A stretch of 64,000 nt of DNA, from the NCBI RefSeq assembly GCF_039537965.1, contig NZ_BAABBM010000001.1, forward strand, positions 124,001 to 188,000. Direction: 5' to 3'. The notes under the pieces are model-generated. The model ran no database searches and had not been told where the DNA came from. It saw nothing but the letters and a program-made list of their open reading frames with translations. How positions within the stretch are numbered: the first letter of the stretch is position 1; every line of letters begins with the position of its first letter. This stretch comes from Sphingomonas limnosediminicola (GTDB taxonomy: Bacteria > Pseudomonadota > Alphaproteobacteria > Sphingomonadales > Sphingomonadaceae). Position numbers and translations under genes: made by a program. Below, one piece after another: positions 56,705 through 61,824 of this stretch.

Positions 56705-57118
56705 CTAGTCCTGTTTGGGGGGCGGGCTGCGCCTCTCGCCCTGCCGCCGGTCACTGCGCCTGCGATCGGGAAGCGCGCCTCTCGGCTGGTTGGACCTGCG
56801 GCGATCGGTCTTACGGCGTTCCGCCTTGCGCCGGTTGCCTTTCGCGCCATCGTCGCGCGGCAGATCGTCGACGTCGATTACCACATTGTCCGCGGCCAGG
56901 TTCGATTCGAGGAGCTTGGCTTTCGCGGCCGAGACGATCAGCGGCAAATGAGCTCTGACGAACTCGCTTCGGTCGCGGTCGGACATGCCGGATGCTTTTT
57001 CAAAGCCGACGTATGCGCCGATCGCCTGCTGCGAGATGCACACGGAGCGAAGCTTACCTTCGATCCAGATTTCGACCAATGTATCCGCCCCGCTGGATCG
57101 GATTGAGTCGTTTTCCAT
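56705..57118 (-). CDS. Unknown protein with Arg-rich repeat tail
   Basis: The 137-residue protein starts at ATG 57118 (GGGGAG upstream); a GTG at 57163 is possible. The first 85 residues have a regular helical/strand pattern (VEIWIEGKLRSVCISQQAIGAY, split here, and FVRAHLPLIVSAAKAKLLESN). The last 45 residues repeat RRK/RRS-x-DRR units (ERRKTDRRRSN, DRRRSDRRQGERR), which suggests RNA, DNA or membrane binding. The family was not recognised. It is next to the sufE gene on the same strand. Confidence 0.65.
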   Translation of the reverse strand: MENDSIRSSGADTLVEIWIEGKLRSVCISQQAIGAYVGFEKASGMSDRDRSEFVRAHLPLIVSAAKAKLLESNLAADNVVIDVDDLPRDDGAKGNRRKAERRKTDRRRSNQPRGALPDRRRSDRRQGERRSPPPKQD

Positions 57119-57194
57119 TTCGCTCCCCGGCGCCGGGCCATTCCGGCTCGACGATGTTGCCACAAGGGTCGTTAATCTTCCATTTGCGGATGCG

Positions 57195-57614
57195 TCAGGC
57201 GGTCTGCGCGTATCGTTCCGCAGTGCTCTTCACGAGCGCGATCATGTTGGGGATGCCCTGCGTCCGATTGGCGCTGAGATGCTTCGAAAGCTCGAAGGGC
57301 GCTAGCGCTGCAGCGACGTCCAGCTGCGCGACTTCGACCGCAGGCTTGTCCTGCACCGAGCTCAGCACGAGCGCGACGATGCCCTTGGTGATGGCCGCGT
57401 TGCTATCGGCAAGGAAATGCAGCCGGCCGTCCTTCGCCGTCGGATAGACCCACACGGACGCTGAGCAGCCACGGACCTTGGTGGCGTCGGTCTTCAGGGG
57501 CTCGGGCATTGGCTCGAGCTGACGCCCGAGATCGATCAGCAGCCGATAGCGGTCCTCCGCCTCGACCAGCTGATATTCCTCGAGGATGTCATGGAGGGCA
57601 GGGAGGCCAGACAT
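57195..57614 (-). CDS. sufE: Sulfur acceptor protein SufE
   Basis: The 139-residue protein takes persulfide sulfur from SufS for Fe-S cluster assembly. The acceptor Cys50 sits in KVRGCSASVW, the SufE signature. The N-terminus LPALHDILEEYQLVEAEDRY and the ANRTQGIPNMIALV end are usual. No other suf genes are in the window. Confidence 0.93.
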   Translation of the reverse strand: MSGLPALHDILEEYQLVEAEDRYRLLIDLGRQLEPMPEPLKTDATKVRGCSASVWVYPTAKDGRLHFLADSNAAITKGIVALVLSSVQDKPAVEVAQLDVAAALAPFELSKHLSANRTQGIPNMIALVKSTAERYAQTA

Positions 57615-57631
57615 GGCCGCGACCTACACGC

Positions 57632-57883
57632 CTAGCGGTCGCGGAGCGACTCGATTTCCTTGGCGAGGCTATTCTCTTTCTCGACGGTGATGCGCTCGAG
57701 AACCTTTATGCGCTCCTTGAGCTCCTGCACTTCCTCGCGAAGGCGGAGCGTCTCCGGACCATCGACCGGCGCATCGCCCCGCATCTCCCTCATCGAGCGG
57801 GAGGGGATGCCCATTTTGTGCTTCACGATGCTGAAGATGAACACCATCGCGATGATGACGATGACAAACTCTGGCGGGTTCAT
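57632..57883 (-). CDS. Small membrane coiled-coil protein, psp operon (83 aa)
   Basis: One N-terminal membrane span (PEFVIVIIAMVFIFSIV) is followed by a hydrophilic coiled coil ending in LKERIKVLERITVEKENSLA and EIESLRDR. The tail matches the module shared by its neighbours and by PspC. It overlaps the upstream gene by ATGA, so it is translationally coupled. The likely role is in the phage-shock membrane complex. The family is not named. Confidence 0.7.
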   Translation of the reverse strand: MNPPEFVIVIIAMVFIFSIVKHKMGIPSRSMREMRGDAPVDGPETLRLREEVQELKERIKVLERITVEKENSLAKEIESLRDR

Positions 57884-58170
57884 TGCGGGTTTTCTCCGGT
57901 CGGAATGCGGGCGTGTTCGCGAAGCGCTTCGATCTGCGCGGCGGTCTGAGCGCCGCCATCCGTGGCAATCTGCTCAAGGACCCGCAAACGCGCTTCGATG
58001 CGTTCGACGTGAGAGGCGTATTGCGCGGCTTTTTCGGCAGTCTGCTGGGCGATCAGCGCTCCCATCTTTTCCTTGTGCAGCAGCCAGCGCTGAAAGGCGC
58101 TCAGGGCCACGCCGCCAAGAACCGGAATCGCCACCACGATGACGAAAAAGATGAGAAGCGAGGGATCCAT
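57880..58170 (-). CDS. Small membrane coiled-coil protein, psp operon (96 aa)
   Basis: The 96-residue protein has a membrane span (LLIFFVIVVAIPVLGGVAL), a short basic stretch and a coiled coil (AEKAAQYASHVERIEARLRV, then LEQIATDGGAQTAAQIEALR). It is very similar in the tail to the next two genes upstream, suggesting tandem duplication. The stop overlaps the following gene. It is probably an extra PspB-like element. Confidence 0.72.
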   Translation of the reverse strand: MDPSLLIFFVIVVAIPVLGGVALSAFQRWLLHKEKMGALIAQQTAEKAAQYASHVERIEARLRVLEQIATDGGAQTAAQIEALREHARIPTGENPQ

Positions 58171-58178
58171 GGCGAACT

Positions 58179-58463
58179 CTACCTGTTGCCGGCGGAGACG
58201 TCGGTCAGGGTTCTGGGGCGATCGCGCAGCGCTTCGATCTGCGCCGCCGTCTCAACGCCGCGATCCGTGACGATCTGCTCAAGAACGCGAAGACGCTCCT
58301 CTACCCGTTCCATATGCTGCGCATATTGAGCGCTTTTCTCGGCAGCGAGGTTGGTCTGTGAGTCCATCTGTTTCTCTTTCAGACGAAGCCACATCTTGAA
58401 CGGCGCAATGCCGATCGCGGCGAGCGGGATCAGTACCCAGATCCAGCTGGCGATATTATCCAT
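58179..58463 (-). CDS. Small membrane coiled-coil protein, psp operon (94 aa)
   Basis: From ATG 58463 (GGGGCAGA upstream) the protein has 94 residues: membrane span WIWVLIPLAAIGIAPF, the linker KMWLRLKEKQ, and coiled coil AEKSAQYAQHMERVEERLRV followed by LEQIVTDRGVETAAQIEALR. It is the closest paralogue of its two neighbours. A longer frame to 58520 would add 19 residues overlapping the gene upstream. Confidence 0.72.
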   Translation of the reverse strand: MDNIASWIWVLIPLAAIGIAPFKMWLRLKEKQMDSQTNLAAEKSAQYAQHMERVEERLRVLEQIVTDRGVETAAQIEALRDRPRTLTDVSAGNR

Positions 58464-58516
58464 TCTGCCCCGTCTCCGTGCTGCTTCGAGTGATGTCGTG
58501 GTGGCGGATTCGCAAA

Positions 58517-58819
58517 TCAAGCATCGGGCGATACCGCGGACTTGCTGCCGACCCGGCGCACCGGCTGTCGCAGCGCCTCGATCTGCGCCGCGGTATCGGC
58601 GCCGCGATCGGTGACGATCTGTTCAAGTACGCGCACCCGGTCTTCGAGCTCATAAGAGCGTGATGCGTATTGGGCGGCCTTCTCGGCGGCATTGCCAGCT
58701 TCGACCTCAAGCCTCTTTTCGCGATACCTGAACCAGCGGTTGGCAATGACCATCAGCAGGATGGTCGGCAGACCGACGACGATCAGCGCGAGGATGATGA
58801 TTCCGAACTGGTCGTGCAT
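58517..58819 (-). CDS. Small membrane coiled-coil protein, psp operon (100 aa)
   Basis: The 100-residue protein has a span (GIIILALIVVGLPTILLMVI), a basic stretch WFRYREKR and coiled coil AEKAAQYASRSYELEDRVRV followed by LEQIVTDRGADTAAQIEALR. It is directly downstream of the next psp gene, with start and stop abutting. It is a paralogue of the two genes that follow. Confidence 0.72.
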   Translation of the reverse strand: MHDQFGIIILALIVVGLPTILLMVIANRWFRYREKRLEVEAGNAAEKAAQYASRSYELEDRVRVLEQIVTDRGADTAAQIEALRQPVRRVGSKSAVSPDA

Positions 58820-59164
58820 TCATTGTCTCCGCGTGTCGGTGTGGGCGAGGGCTTCGATTTCCTTGCTGAGCTTGGTCGGCTCGTCGGTAACGATGCGCTC
58901 GACATTTTGCAGCCGGTCCTTGATCGAGCCGAGCTCGGCGCGGAGCTGCGCATTTTCGGTCGTGAGCAGCTTGATCCGCTCGATCGATTCCTGGTCGGTC
59001 TTAGGGTGGATCGGCATGCCCCAGCTGTTCTGAAGCGGATAGCCGTTCTTGATCCTAAGCCAGGTGTGCAGAAGCGAACCGCCAACGCCGAGAGCGACGA
59101 TAATCACCACCAGGGGCAGGATCCTCATCACGAAGTTAAATACCTGGACGACTTCCGGATCCAT
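58820..59164 (-). CDS. Small membrane coiled-coil protein, psp operon (114 aa)
   Basis: The 114-residue protein has a span (IVALGVGGSLLHTWLRI and preceding residues), a hydrophilic linker and a coiled coil (ENAQLRAELGSIKDRLQNVE, then RIVTDEPTKLSKEIEALA). The tail module is the same as in its neighbours but the N-terminal part differs, so it is a more distant member. It lies 21 bp after pspC. Confidence 0.7.
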   Translation of the reverse strand: MDPEVVQVFNFVMRILPLVVIIVALGVGGSLLHTWLRIKNGYPLQNSWGMPIHPKTDQESIERIKLLTTENAQLRAELGSIKDRLQNVERIVTDEPTKLSKEIEALAHTDTRRQ

Positions 59165-59185
59165 GACTTCCCCCTTTATGCTCGG

Positions 59186-59632
59186 TTAGCGCAGCTGCTC
59201 GATCTCTCGCGCCAGCGAGCGGTTTTCGGTCGTCACATAGCTTTCGATGTCGGCGAGGCGGCGATCGATGTCCTTGAACCGCGACCTGATGTCGCCGGCA
59301 GCGCGCTTCGGCGAAGCGCGGACGCCCTGCCAGAACTTGCGGTCTTCGCGATCTTCGTAGTCGAGCGTTGTCGGCTTGGTCGGCGCAACCCAGCCCGCAA
59401 TGAAGTAAAAGGGCAGGACGCCACCGCCGCTCATAAAAACGGCGGCCAGGAAGCAGATCCGGACGAGCGCGACGTCGAAACCCGTGTAATCGGCGATGCC
59501 GGCGCAGACGCCCATCACCTTGCCGTGCTGCTTGTCGCGATAGAAGCGCGTGCGGCTGGCCGGCTGCTCCGTCATGTACCGGTCGCGGCCTGGATCGTAG
59601 CGATGCTCAGGAAGGGGATAGTCGTCGACCAT
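59186..59632 (-). CDS. pspC: Phage shock protein C (PspC) domain protein
   Basis: The 148-residue protein contains a PspC domain (HGKVMGVCAGIADYTGFDVALVRI, interrupted here, and FYFIAGWVAPTKP) with two hydrophobic helices. The C-terminus carries a coiled coil (IDRRLADIESYVTTENRSLA, EIEQLR) that E. coli PspC lacks in this form. In E. coli PspB and PspC sense envelope stress and bind PspA. It is 3 bp after pspB. A downstream ATG (residue 20) is an alternative start. Confidence 0.88.
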   Translation of the reverse strand: MVDDYPLPEHRYDPGRDRYMTEQPASRTRFYRDKQHGKVMGVCAGIADYTGFDVALVRICFLAAVFMSGGGVLPFYFIAGWVAPTKPTTLDYEDREDRKFWQGVRASPKRAAGDIRSRFKDIDRRLADIESYVTTENRSLAREIEQLR

Positions 59633-59635
59633 CGC

Positions 59636-59905
59636 TTATTCTCCGTCCGCCAGAAGGCGCTGGTTGTCGCGGCCAGGGAGGCACTGCTGCCGCCAGTTCG
59701 GGTTCTCCGCCGTCATGATGCGCTCGATGGTGCAGAGGCGGTCGTCGAGCCGCCGGGCCGCGTCATGAAGCTCGTCTAGCAGCTTCTCATCGCCCGAGGT
59801 CAGCGTAGCGGCAGTCTTCCACTTGGTGACGTAGTGAAAGATCAGCCATGGCAGGCCGATGAACAGTGCCACAATGGCAAAGATCGGAATCAAGTCGTGA
59901 TCCAT
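59636..59905 (-). CDS. pspB: Phage shock protein B (PspB)
   Basis: The 89-residue protein has an N-terminal span (IPIFAIVALFIGLPWLIFHYV) followed by a coiled coil ending in TIERIMTAENPNWRQQ, the PspB hallmark. It works with PspC to control PspA. The 14 residues after NPNWRQQ are extra. It lies 6 bp after pspA and 3 bp before pspC. Confidence 0.87.
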   Translation of the reverse strand: MDHDLIPIFAIVALFIGLPWLIFHYVTKWKTAATLTSGDEKLLDELHDAARRLDDRLCTIERIMTAENPNWRQQCLPGRDNQRLLADGE

Positions 59906-59911
59906 ATTCTC

Positions 59912-60580
59912 TTACTTCCCCTTGGCCTTCAGCGCGGCCTTCATGGCTTCAAGCTCGGCATCCACCGACTCTGAAGCCCTCAGCTCGGCAATTTCTTCTT
60001 CGAGGCTCTTCGGCCCCGTCATACCCAATGCGTCGGCGCGGCCTTCGGCAAAGTCGGCACGGCGCTCGAGAATCTCGAACTTGGAGAACGCATCCTCGGT
60101 GCGGCTACCGTTCAAAAGCTCGCGAGCCCTGCCGCGCGTAACGGCGCTTTCGAACCGCGATTGGATCGCGTTCTGGCGCGCACGGGCTTCGCGAAGCTTG
60201 CCCTGCAGCTTGGAGATGTCCGCCTCGTAGCTTCTGAGCGTATCGTCGATGGTCTTGATCTCGCCGCGGAGGCCTTCGCCCATGTCGGCGGCCTTCTGGC
60301 GCTCGATCAGCGCAGCCTTGGCGAGGTCCTCCCGGTCCTTTGACAGCGCGAGCTCGGCCTTTTCAGTCCAGCCTGCCTGCAGTTCCTCGAGACGCGACAG
60401 CGCGCGGCGCATTTCCTTGCCGTCAGCGATGCAGCGCGCGGCCGAGGCGCGAACCTCGACCAAAGTCTCCTCCATTTCGAGGATGACCATTCGGATCATC
60501 TTCGCCGGGTCTTCCGACCGGTCGAGCATCTCGGTGATGTTCGCCGCGAAGATATCCCGAGTCCGGGAAAAGATACTCAT
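59912..60580 (-). CDS. pspA: Phage shock protein A (PspA)
   Basis: The 222-residue PspA/IM30 protein starts with the amphipathic helix MSIFSRTRDIFAANITEMLD and the ESCRT-III-like coiled coils (EDPAKMIRMVILEMEETLVE, split; IQSRFESAVTRGRARELL). In E. coli it inhibits PspF and, under stress, assembles on the inner membrane. The C-terminal region ends in AMKAALKAKGK. It is the first gene of the minus-strand operon and is preceded by a sigma-54 promoter. Confidence 0.94.
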   Translation of the reverse strand: MSIFSRTRDIFAANITEMLDRSEDPAKMIRMVILEMEETLVEVRASAARCIADGKEMRRALSRLEELQAGWTEKAELALSKDREDLAKAALIERQKAADMGEGLRGEIKTIDDTLRSYEADISKLQGKLREARARQNAIQSRFESAVTRGRARELLNGSRTEDAFSKFEILERRADFAEGRADALGMTGPKSLEEEIAELRASESVDAELEAMKAALKAKGK

Positions 60581-60629
60581 TCAGTCACTCCGGTAATCGA
60601 ATTAGGGCCCTAAACTTGCCTCTTCCCTA

Positions 60630-60645
60630 TGCAGGCGTCGTGCCA
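60630..60645 (-). promoter_or_regulatory. Sigma-54 promoter of the psp operon
   Basis: On the reverse strand TGGCACG-ACGC-CTGCA fits the -24/-12 consensus TGGCACG-N4-TTGCA with one mismatch and correct spacing. It lies 50 bp before the pspA start and faces it. The opposite gene, pspF, encodes the matching activator. Upstream, TGGTGG-N6-CCACCA (60720-60737) is a candidate activator-binding site. Confidence 0.8.
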
Positions 60646-60768
60646 GAATCGCACACTCGGCTGATTTTCAATATTTTTGCTATTTTTCGAGGGGAATTCA
60701 CCTGAAAATCCTTGCCAAATGGTGGGATTTGCCACCAACAGTCGGGCAGTTTTCGGGTTGAAGGGCAG

Positions 60769-61824
60769 ATGGAGCGGGCGGATCAATTCATCGGGCAGAG
60801 CCTGCCGTTTCTCGACGCGGTCGAGCGTGCCAGCCGTGCCGCGCCGCTCAACCGCCCGGTGCTCGTCATCGGCGAGCGTGGAACGGGCAAGGAGCTGATT
60901 GCCGAGCGCCTTCATCACTTGTCGCCGCGATGGGCCGGACCGCTGATCATCATGAATTGCGCGGCGCTTCCCGAGAATCTCATCGAGGCGGAGCTGTTCG
61001 GGCACGAGGCGGGGAGCTTTACCGGCGCGGCGAAGACACGCCATGGCCGCTTCGAGGAAGCTGACGGCGGCACCCTGTTCCTCGATGAGCTCGGTACCTT
61101 GTCGATGCCTGCGCAGGATCGTCTGCTGCGCGCGGTCGAATATGGCGAAATCACGCGGATCGGTGCCTCCAAGCCGATTACCGTGGACGTGCGCATCGTC
61201 GCGGCAACCAATGAAAATCTTCCCGCGCAGGTTGACCGTGGAAAATTCCGCGCCGACCTTCTCGACCGGCTTTCCTTTGAGGTGATCACACTTCCCCCCT
61301 TGCGGGTGCGCCAGGGCGACATCCCAGTGCTTTCGGAGCATTTCGGGCGTCGGATGGCCGTGGAGCTGGACTGGCCCAACTGGCCAGGCTTCAGCTCGCG
61401 CGCCGTGGCGGCCCTTGAGAATTATTCTTGGCCCGGAAATGTGCGCGAGCTCAGGAACGTGGTCGAGCGCGCGGTTTATCGCCACGAGGATCCCGAGCGC
61501 CCAATCGACGAGATTACCTTTGACCCATTTTATTCGCCCTGGAGTCCGGTGGGATCGGCGGCCGTCCAGGCGGGGTCAGTAACGCAGGATTCCGACACAA
61601 GCGAAGAGCCAGCGCAGGCGCTTCACCTTGTTTCTGCCGCCCCGGAAGCAATCTCTACCAATGACTTCCGCGGCGCCGTATCGGCGTACGAGCGCCAGCT
61701 TCTCGAGGACGCGCTACGCCGCAATCGTTTCAATCAGCGGGCGACGGCGGCGGCACTAGGCCTCAGTTATGACCAGCTGCGGCACGCACTGAAGCGGCAC
61801 AAGCTGCAGGACACCGCGGCTTAG
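60769..61824 (+). CDS. pspF: Phage shock operon activator PspF (sigma-54 dependent)
   Basis: The 351-residue activator has Walker A GERGTGKE, the sigma-54 contact loop GSFTGA (residues 82-87, Ala replaced by Ser83), Walker B GGTLFLDELGTL and the arginine region NVRELRNVVERAVYR. A Fis-type HTH (ATAAALGLSYDQLRHALKRH) ends the protein. No N-terminal sensor domain precedes the AAA+ module, as in PspF. It diverges from pspA. ATG 60769 (AGGGCAG upstream) is chosen over an earlier in-frame ATG. Confidence 0.92.
   Translation: MERADQFIGQSLPFLDAVERASRAAPLNRPVLVIGERGTGKELIAERLHHLSPRWAGPLIIMNCAALPENLIEAELFGHEAGSFTGAAKTRHGRFEEADGGTLFLDELGTLSMPAQDRLLRAVEYGEITRIGASKPITVDVRIVAATNENLPAQVDRGKFRADLLDRLSFEVITLPPLRVRQGDIPVLSEHFGRRMAVELDWPNWPGFSSRAVAALENYSWPGNVRELRNVVERAVYRHEDPERPIDEITFDPFYSPWSPVGSAAVQAGSVTQDSDTSEEPAQALHLVSAAPEAISTNDFRGAVSAYERQLLEDALRRNRFNQRATAAALGLSYDQLRHALKRHKLQDTAA

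Follow-up and report, generated by a model that had tools for sequence, protein, structure and literature searches.

The psp operon of Sphingomonas limnosediminicola continues beyond pspC with five small genes on the same strand, here called V, W, X, Y and Z, and the question raised by this locus is what these genes are and what they might contribute to the Psp system. They lie in a stretch of 64,000 nucleotides (nt; positions 124,001 to 188,000 of contig NZ_BAABBM010000001.1, assembly GCF_039537965.1), hereafter the window, whose own numbering is used throughout. An initial annotation had read them as variant PspB-like subunits sharing one coiled-coil module with PspB and PspC. Our analysis bears out the expanded psp operon, in which the tail of PspC and PspB recurs on extra genes packed as one unit with pspA, as judged by a tail profile and by short gaps between the genes. 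This architecture, a psp operon with a tail-bearing array, is near certain, and it extends across the family Sphingomonadaceae. The genes that carry the tail are listed below, with lengths in amino acids (aa).

58820..59164, minus strand: V, 114 aa; one membrane span, conserved GYPL..WG motif, module tail
58517..58819, minus strand: W, 100 aa; one span, AEKAAQYA motif, module tail
58179..58463, minus strand: X, 94 aa, W type; taken from an ATG start (the listed open reading frame reaches 58520 from a TTG)
57880..58170, minus strand: Y, 96 aa, W type
57632..57883, minus strand: Z, 83 aa; one span, tail KERIKVLERITVEKENSLAKEIESLRDR
59636..59905, minus strand: pspB, tail RLDDRLCTIERIMTAENPNW; TIGR02976 E 2.4e-23, over the cut-off
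59186..59632, minus strand: pspC, tail RRLADIESYVTTENRSLAREIEQLR; TIGR02978 E 1.4e-36, over the cut-off

The shared C-terminal tail

A single tail of about 34 residues is common to all five small proteins (57632-59164, minus strand), and the C-terminal tails of V-Z and PspC proved to be homologous. When a tail profile built from other genera only was used to scan the genome in six frames, V-Z ranked first (E 1e-13 to 3e-9), followed by PspC (0.02), one unrelated match and PspB (0.09). Profile A1 was composed of 31 of 56 diverse tails, after manual removal of PspB rows, of tails containing additional residues and of a number of others. A generic coiled coil was ruled out by heptad-preserving shuffles for V, W, Z and PspC; for PspB, the same holds in comparison with V and W. 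The claim of the initial annotation that the tails share positions beyond generic heptads, put to a test fixed in advance, was not refuted, as 10 of the 12 pairs were without any equally good shuffle (the exceptions being PspB-Z and PspB-PspC).

The description of V-Z as variant PspB subunits fared less well. None of the five passes a Pfam or NCBIfam cut-off; they give weak partial matches to the PspB and PspC models, together with weak coiled-coil matches. Their best scores as PspB are 23.4 bits against a cut-off of 51.7 (TIGR02976) and 15.6 against 25.6 (PF06667), and the PspC domain PF04024 has no match among them at E up to 1. Over the tail block, profiles of the small proteins matched PspC no less well than PspB (the PspB and PspC profile sets came from 72 and 50 of the 78 family loci described below, as found by a sequence pattern). 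Rather than variant copies of PspB, the small proteins are better regarded as members of a PspB/PspC-tail family that comprises four types, because the profiles fit the PspC tail no less well and because most of the located relatives outside the Sphingomonadaceae are genes away from psp, not pspB.

V-Z as spurious open reading frames were ruled out by codon scores, by nonsynonymous differences in lower proportion than synonymous ones (pN < pS) and by conservation across genera. A homologue search with W returned 5386 matches at E up to 0.001, and no Pfam domain is found in any of the 120 listed; this recurrent part of an envelope-stress operon in a large environmental family is therefore close to invisible in annotations. 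Sequence searches of the PDB gave no match for PspB or PspC, and W matched only a designed protein-origami chain.

Four types of array gene across the Sphingomonadaceae

Further psp loci were located via pspA: 44 of the same genus, 33 from other genera of the family (hand-chosen, about one per genus) and 18 from other families of the order. With the window included, the family set comprises 78 loci (45 same-genus and 33 from other genera), in which genes were predicted with a codon-weighted caller. Genome G012, whose operon is split over two contigs, was left out of the count, four 58-aa open reading frames without the tail were excluded from the array counts, and the genes of locus L071 were taken from a greedy caller. 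The array first noted in this one window proved general, with one to eight array genes in 78 of the 78 family loci and at least two in 77. Same-genus loci carry two (nine loci), three (13), four (13), five (8) or six (2) copies; those of other genera carry one (1), three (2), four (8), five (13), six (4), seven (4) or eight (1). The 321 gaps within these arrays have a median of 11 nt; 130 are zero or less, of which 121 are -1 or -4, and nine exceed 100 nt.

The tail was also searched for independently of the gene caller in 199 family genomes, some of which had supplied rows to the profile; a complete hold-out therefore applies to the same-genus genomes alone. A match at E up to 0.001 was found in 189, with two or more in 171 by hand count; the profile does not report the T type, described below, in the own genome. 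A pspA match (E up to 0.001) is also missing from eight of the 10 family genomes that lack a tail match; the other two, G538 and G553, have pspA. Eleven loci were chosen from genomes with no tail match or a single one: those of G518 and of three genomes of genus g56 have Z, five have Z and T, and the rest are those of G538 and G553, which are considered further below.

Louvain clustering of phmmer scores for 334 proteins (including five from second psp loci and four from f8, another family of the order) yielded four main types, which take in 324 members: V (GYPL..WG), W (AEKAAQYA), Z and T. The tail of the T type consists of the first half of the module only. Ten proteins fall outside the four types, two of these being PspC-like proteins of f8. 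Gene order is recurrent among the 78 loci, with VVWZT in eight and VWZ in 10, and the array ends with Z in 42 of 45 same-genus loci and with T in 31 of 33 other family loci. In the genus of the window no T was found at the main psp locus; T is instead held by a separate pspA2-pspC2-T locus, as seen in each of the five such loci retrieved (L086-L090), that of the own genome included. This own-genome locus (L086, G000:C1:1330000-1342000) encodes a PspC2 with a PspC-type tail and a T with a half-length tail, and the same trio is present in L087-L090, from four other same-genus genomes. In V proteins the GYPL..WG motif is near-invariant directly after the membrane span, and may be a membrane-surface or ligand site.

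The three W-type proteins of the window, W, X and Y, share 44-51% identity; in the tree, X pairs with a G022 gene (100/95) outside a W+Y group (94/95), and W and Y each pair with a G035 gene (99/90 and 100/96), indicating that the three are older than the split from these relatives. For every gene pN was below pS against the best match in seven relatives, best matches not always being orthologs. Identity to these relatives is 0.35-0.83 for the small proteins, mostly below 0.72, and 0.65-0.85 for PspB, PspC and SufE.

Topology and predicted structure

Hydropathy and charge, with AlphaFold models for V and W only, predict that V-Z each have a single N-terminal span followed by a cytoplasmic helical domain. 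A clear first span was seen in 290 of the 324 four-type proteins, the other 34 having dropped out partly through a late predicted start. Lysine and arginine are richer in the 15 residues after the span than in those before it in 288 of the 290, a bias that predicts an N-out/C-in orientation. The AlphaFold monomer of W is one helix (residues 2-83; mean pLDDT 76.9, pTM 0.34), and in that of V the GYPL linker connects two helices, 3-39 and 57-113 (pLDDT 77.9, pTM 0.32).

Relatives outside the Sphingomonadaceae

Among 40 genomes from other Sphingomonadales families, a tail match was found in 23, as one copy in 19 and two in four. The proteins, of 71-90 aa, resemble those of the window in having one span and this tail (profile E 8e-9 to 4e-15), but occur in one or two copies and mostly away from pspA. 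Position relative to pspA was obtained for 17 of the 23 matching genomes, the remaining six being unplaced; a copy lies beside pspA in three, all of f8, and away from it in 14. Twelve stretches around such genes were read (11 from other families and that of G378), of which one was psp itself (L238), three were rpoD-adjacent and the others had varied neighbors. The stand-alone tail gene of f8 lies directly downstream of rpoD, identified by its sigma-70 domains, in L232, L239 and L241.

Two of the 18 other-family psp loci, L099 and L103 of f8, have one tail gene and a short PspC-domain gene. An array was not found in the remaining ones, where the gene caller, trained mainly on G+C-rich family genes, is weak, gave partial results at several loci and failed at L102. 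The gene after pspC in L099 and L103 encodes the short PspC-domain protein, which has no tail (PF04024 1.3e-13). In the tree, two of the three psp copies of f8 group with the stand-alone copies of that family (94/92); a one-clade constraint gave p-AU 0.15, so that a single origin is not rejected. That f8 brought the module into psp on its own is suggested but not established. Across 289 genomes of the class, matches at E up to 1e-4 were confined to five listed members of the family and to G378. In this distant alphaproteobacterium, two adjacent tail-like genes (L240, 3227-3709) stand beside genes for a dUTPase and a coaBC-type protein; no psp gene was noticed in the L240 stretch, and the pair may be a second, separate small expansion.

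Possible roles of the array

Work on other bacteria offers a lead to function. In Yersinia, PspA is reported to be bound by the PspC tail when the system is on, which frees PspF, and the title of a cited paper has PspB-PspC cytoplasmic contacts silencing the response. The available part of a study in Escherichia coli reports that a putative leucine zipper of PspC is needed for its interaction with PspA (PMC3068692). Since the PspC tail of Yersinia binds PspA, our proposal is that the array supplies further copies of the PspC-tail switch, anchored in the membrane. PspF and sigma-54 RNA polymerase would transcribe pspA-pspB-pspC-V-W-X-Y-Z as a single unit, as the gene spacing suggests, and each small protein would span the inner membrane once, N-terminus outward, and extend its helical tail into the cytoplasm. 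The tails of V-Z could then pair with those of PspC and PspB or with PspA, and such pairing would set the response threshold and provide more sites for PspA at the membrane, while differing spans and linkers (GYPL in V, AEKAAQYA in W) may feed different membrane disturbances into one switch. By this analogy, we judge the chances evenly balanced that V-Z are extra docking or partner-switch subunits of Psp with a multiplied PspC/PspB cytoplasmic tail. A many-part sensor or scaffold, as the initial annotation envisaged, would be plausible. A more specific version is possible but tentative: four anchor types, each with its own span and linker, would present a common tail that competes for PspC and PspA, and their mix would tune both which disturbances release PspF and how large the PspA assembly becomes.

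Several observations weigh against tail docking as the function of the array. The available text on E. coli describes one topology that puts part of PspC in the periplasm, maps PspB self-association and PspB-PspC contact to putative membrane regions, and reports a PspB leucine-zipper mutant that binds PspC and loses ArcB (PMC3068692); given these contacts and this mutant, the tails may contact other proteins instead of one another. The pairs PspB-Z and PspB-PspC were only marginal in the shuffle test, and the T tail was not linked to PspB or PspC (0.071 and 0.19). Of two family genomes with pspA (G538, G553), one has a locus with pspB and pspC and no gene of the four types, the other a locus with pspB, pspC and T only, indicating that some Psp systems in the family do without the array. 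The stand-alone relatives beside rpoD or dut place the module outside psp as well, and the AlphaFold monomers are plain long helices that support no specific docking.

Other readings account for parts of the same evidence. The five could be stress effectors like E. coli PspD and PspG that protect the membrane, with the tail recruiting them to a PspA/PspC complex and no part in sensing. Their position at the operon end, where E. coli has further Psp proteins, suits such a role, as do spans and linkers that vary more than the tail and a mostly faster evolution than that of PspB and PspC. We nevertheless consider it unlikely, since the module is most like the regulatory tail of PspC and, to our knowledge, PspD and PspG have no PspB/PspC-type tail. 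Each tail might also link Psp to a different membrane or cytoplasmic partner, without pairing to PspC or PspA. That E. coli PspB can lose ArcB through its zipper and keep PspC (PMC3068692) agrees with this, as does the existence of relatives outside psp, but the tail is the conserved part among the small proteins, which suggests one common partner, and the presence or absence of the array tracks pspA; such adaptors seem to us quite improbable.

Redundancy would account for a copy number that ranges from 1 to 8 across the 78 loci, and for few-match loci, some of the 11 having only Z, Z and T, T alone or none; the tandem duplicates would then be spacers or extra copies, through dosage or drift, with little division of labor. 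Distinct types in recurrent order across genera (VVWZT, 8/78; VWZ, 10/78), type-specific motifs and pN < pS make this improbable. It is hardly credible that V-Z are unrelated coiled-coil membrane proteins with generic heptads that came to be neighbors by chance: they are small helical proteins with weak generic coiled-coil Pfam matches, yet that view is contradicted by the heptad shuffles for V, W, Z and PspC, by the tail profile and by the typing.

Comparison with described psp systems

Compared with the enterobacterial pspABC (PF06667, PF04024; TIGR02976, TIGR02978), the locus has the same divergent pspF, sigma-54-type site and pspA-pspB-pspC order, PspB likewise has a single span and a helical tail, and the tail of the small proteins is related to the PspC C-terminus. 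It differs in its five added tail proteins (up to eight in relatives), which are below the family cut-offs and have the linkers GYPL and AEKAAQYA. Zymomonas mobilis is a sphingomonad. Its pspA, pspB and pspC rise under ethanol or xylose stress (PMC3495753, PMC8645129), and the ethanol response (PMC3495753) suggests that a sphingomonad psp system reacts to membrane stress; the available text of these papers names only ZMO1061-ZMO1065 and does not mention the small-gene array.

The initial annotation knew of no description of such an array, a claim that has to be narrowed a little. In a single clause, Ravi et al. 2024 (PMC11237479) mention duplicated PspB in psp operons, with AOL22920.1 as the example, and the possible fusion of PspC to a divergent PspB at the C-terminal end; the array, the four types, the fixed slot, the family-wide spread and the stand-alone relatives do not figure in the available text of that paper. 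Another survey (PMC9239133) describes multiple PspA and PspC paralogs and, in the part available, does not mention PspB arrays. No description of the psp array was found among the matches listed in full-text literature on psp and sphingomonads, or in the text available from them. For the question of how PspB and PspC detect membrane damage, standard systems offer only one copy of each to mutate. Reuse of the tail on many anchors would provide a natural separation of span, linker and tail, and the family supplies sequences for covariation.

Core operon and neighboring genes

Upstream of the array the operon is of the usual kind, with pspF on the plus strand divergent from pspA-pspB-pspC-V-W-X-Y-Z on the minus strand and a sufE-like gene at the array end.

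60712..61824, plus strand: pspF, sigma-54 activator; TIGR02974 E 3e-146, over the cut-off (start codon as listed by the open reading frame finder; the real start may lie further in)
60629..60645, minus strand: predicted sigma-54 -24/-12 promoter-like site TGGCACGACGCCTGCAT upstream of pspA, by consensus match
59912..60580, minus strand: pspA; TIGR02977 E 2.9e-77, over the cut-off
57195..57614, minus strand: sufE-like gene bordering the array; PF02657 E 1.7e-34

PspF, PspA, PspB and PspC all score above the NCBIfam equivalog cut-offs and stand in the usual gene order, and pspF lies within the fetched stretch in 77 of the 78 family loci. The successive gaps from pspA through Z are 6, 3, 21, 0, 53, 8 and -4 nt. 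We take TGGCACGACGCCTGCAT to be of sigma-54 type from the -24/-12 consensus. Such a site, with 9 or more of the 11 consensus bases and both GG and GC, was sought up to 400 bases upstream of pspA, sites farther away being missed. It is present at 36 of 45 loci of the genus and at 17 of 33 from other genera of the family, compared with 60 of 1920 shuffled sequences. A scan of 57000-60900 gave no sigma-70-like site. Terminator-like matches in the scanned region numbered six against 3.5 expected; the two on the operon strand (59412-59428 and 57842-57866) each lie within a gene.

A sufE homolog is found within the fetched stretch, not always adjacent, in 73 of the 78 family loci and in 12 of the 18 other-family loci, which places the array mostly between pspC and sufE. 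The sufE-like gene is a recurrent neighbor that probably lies outside Psp function.
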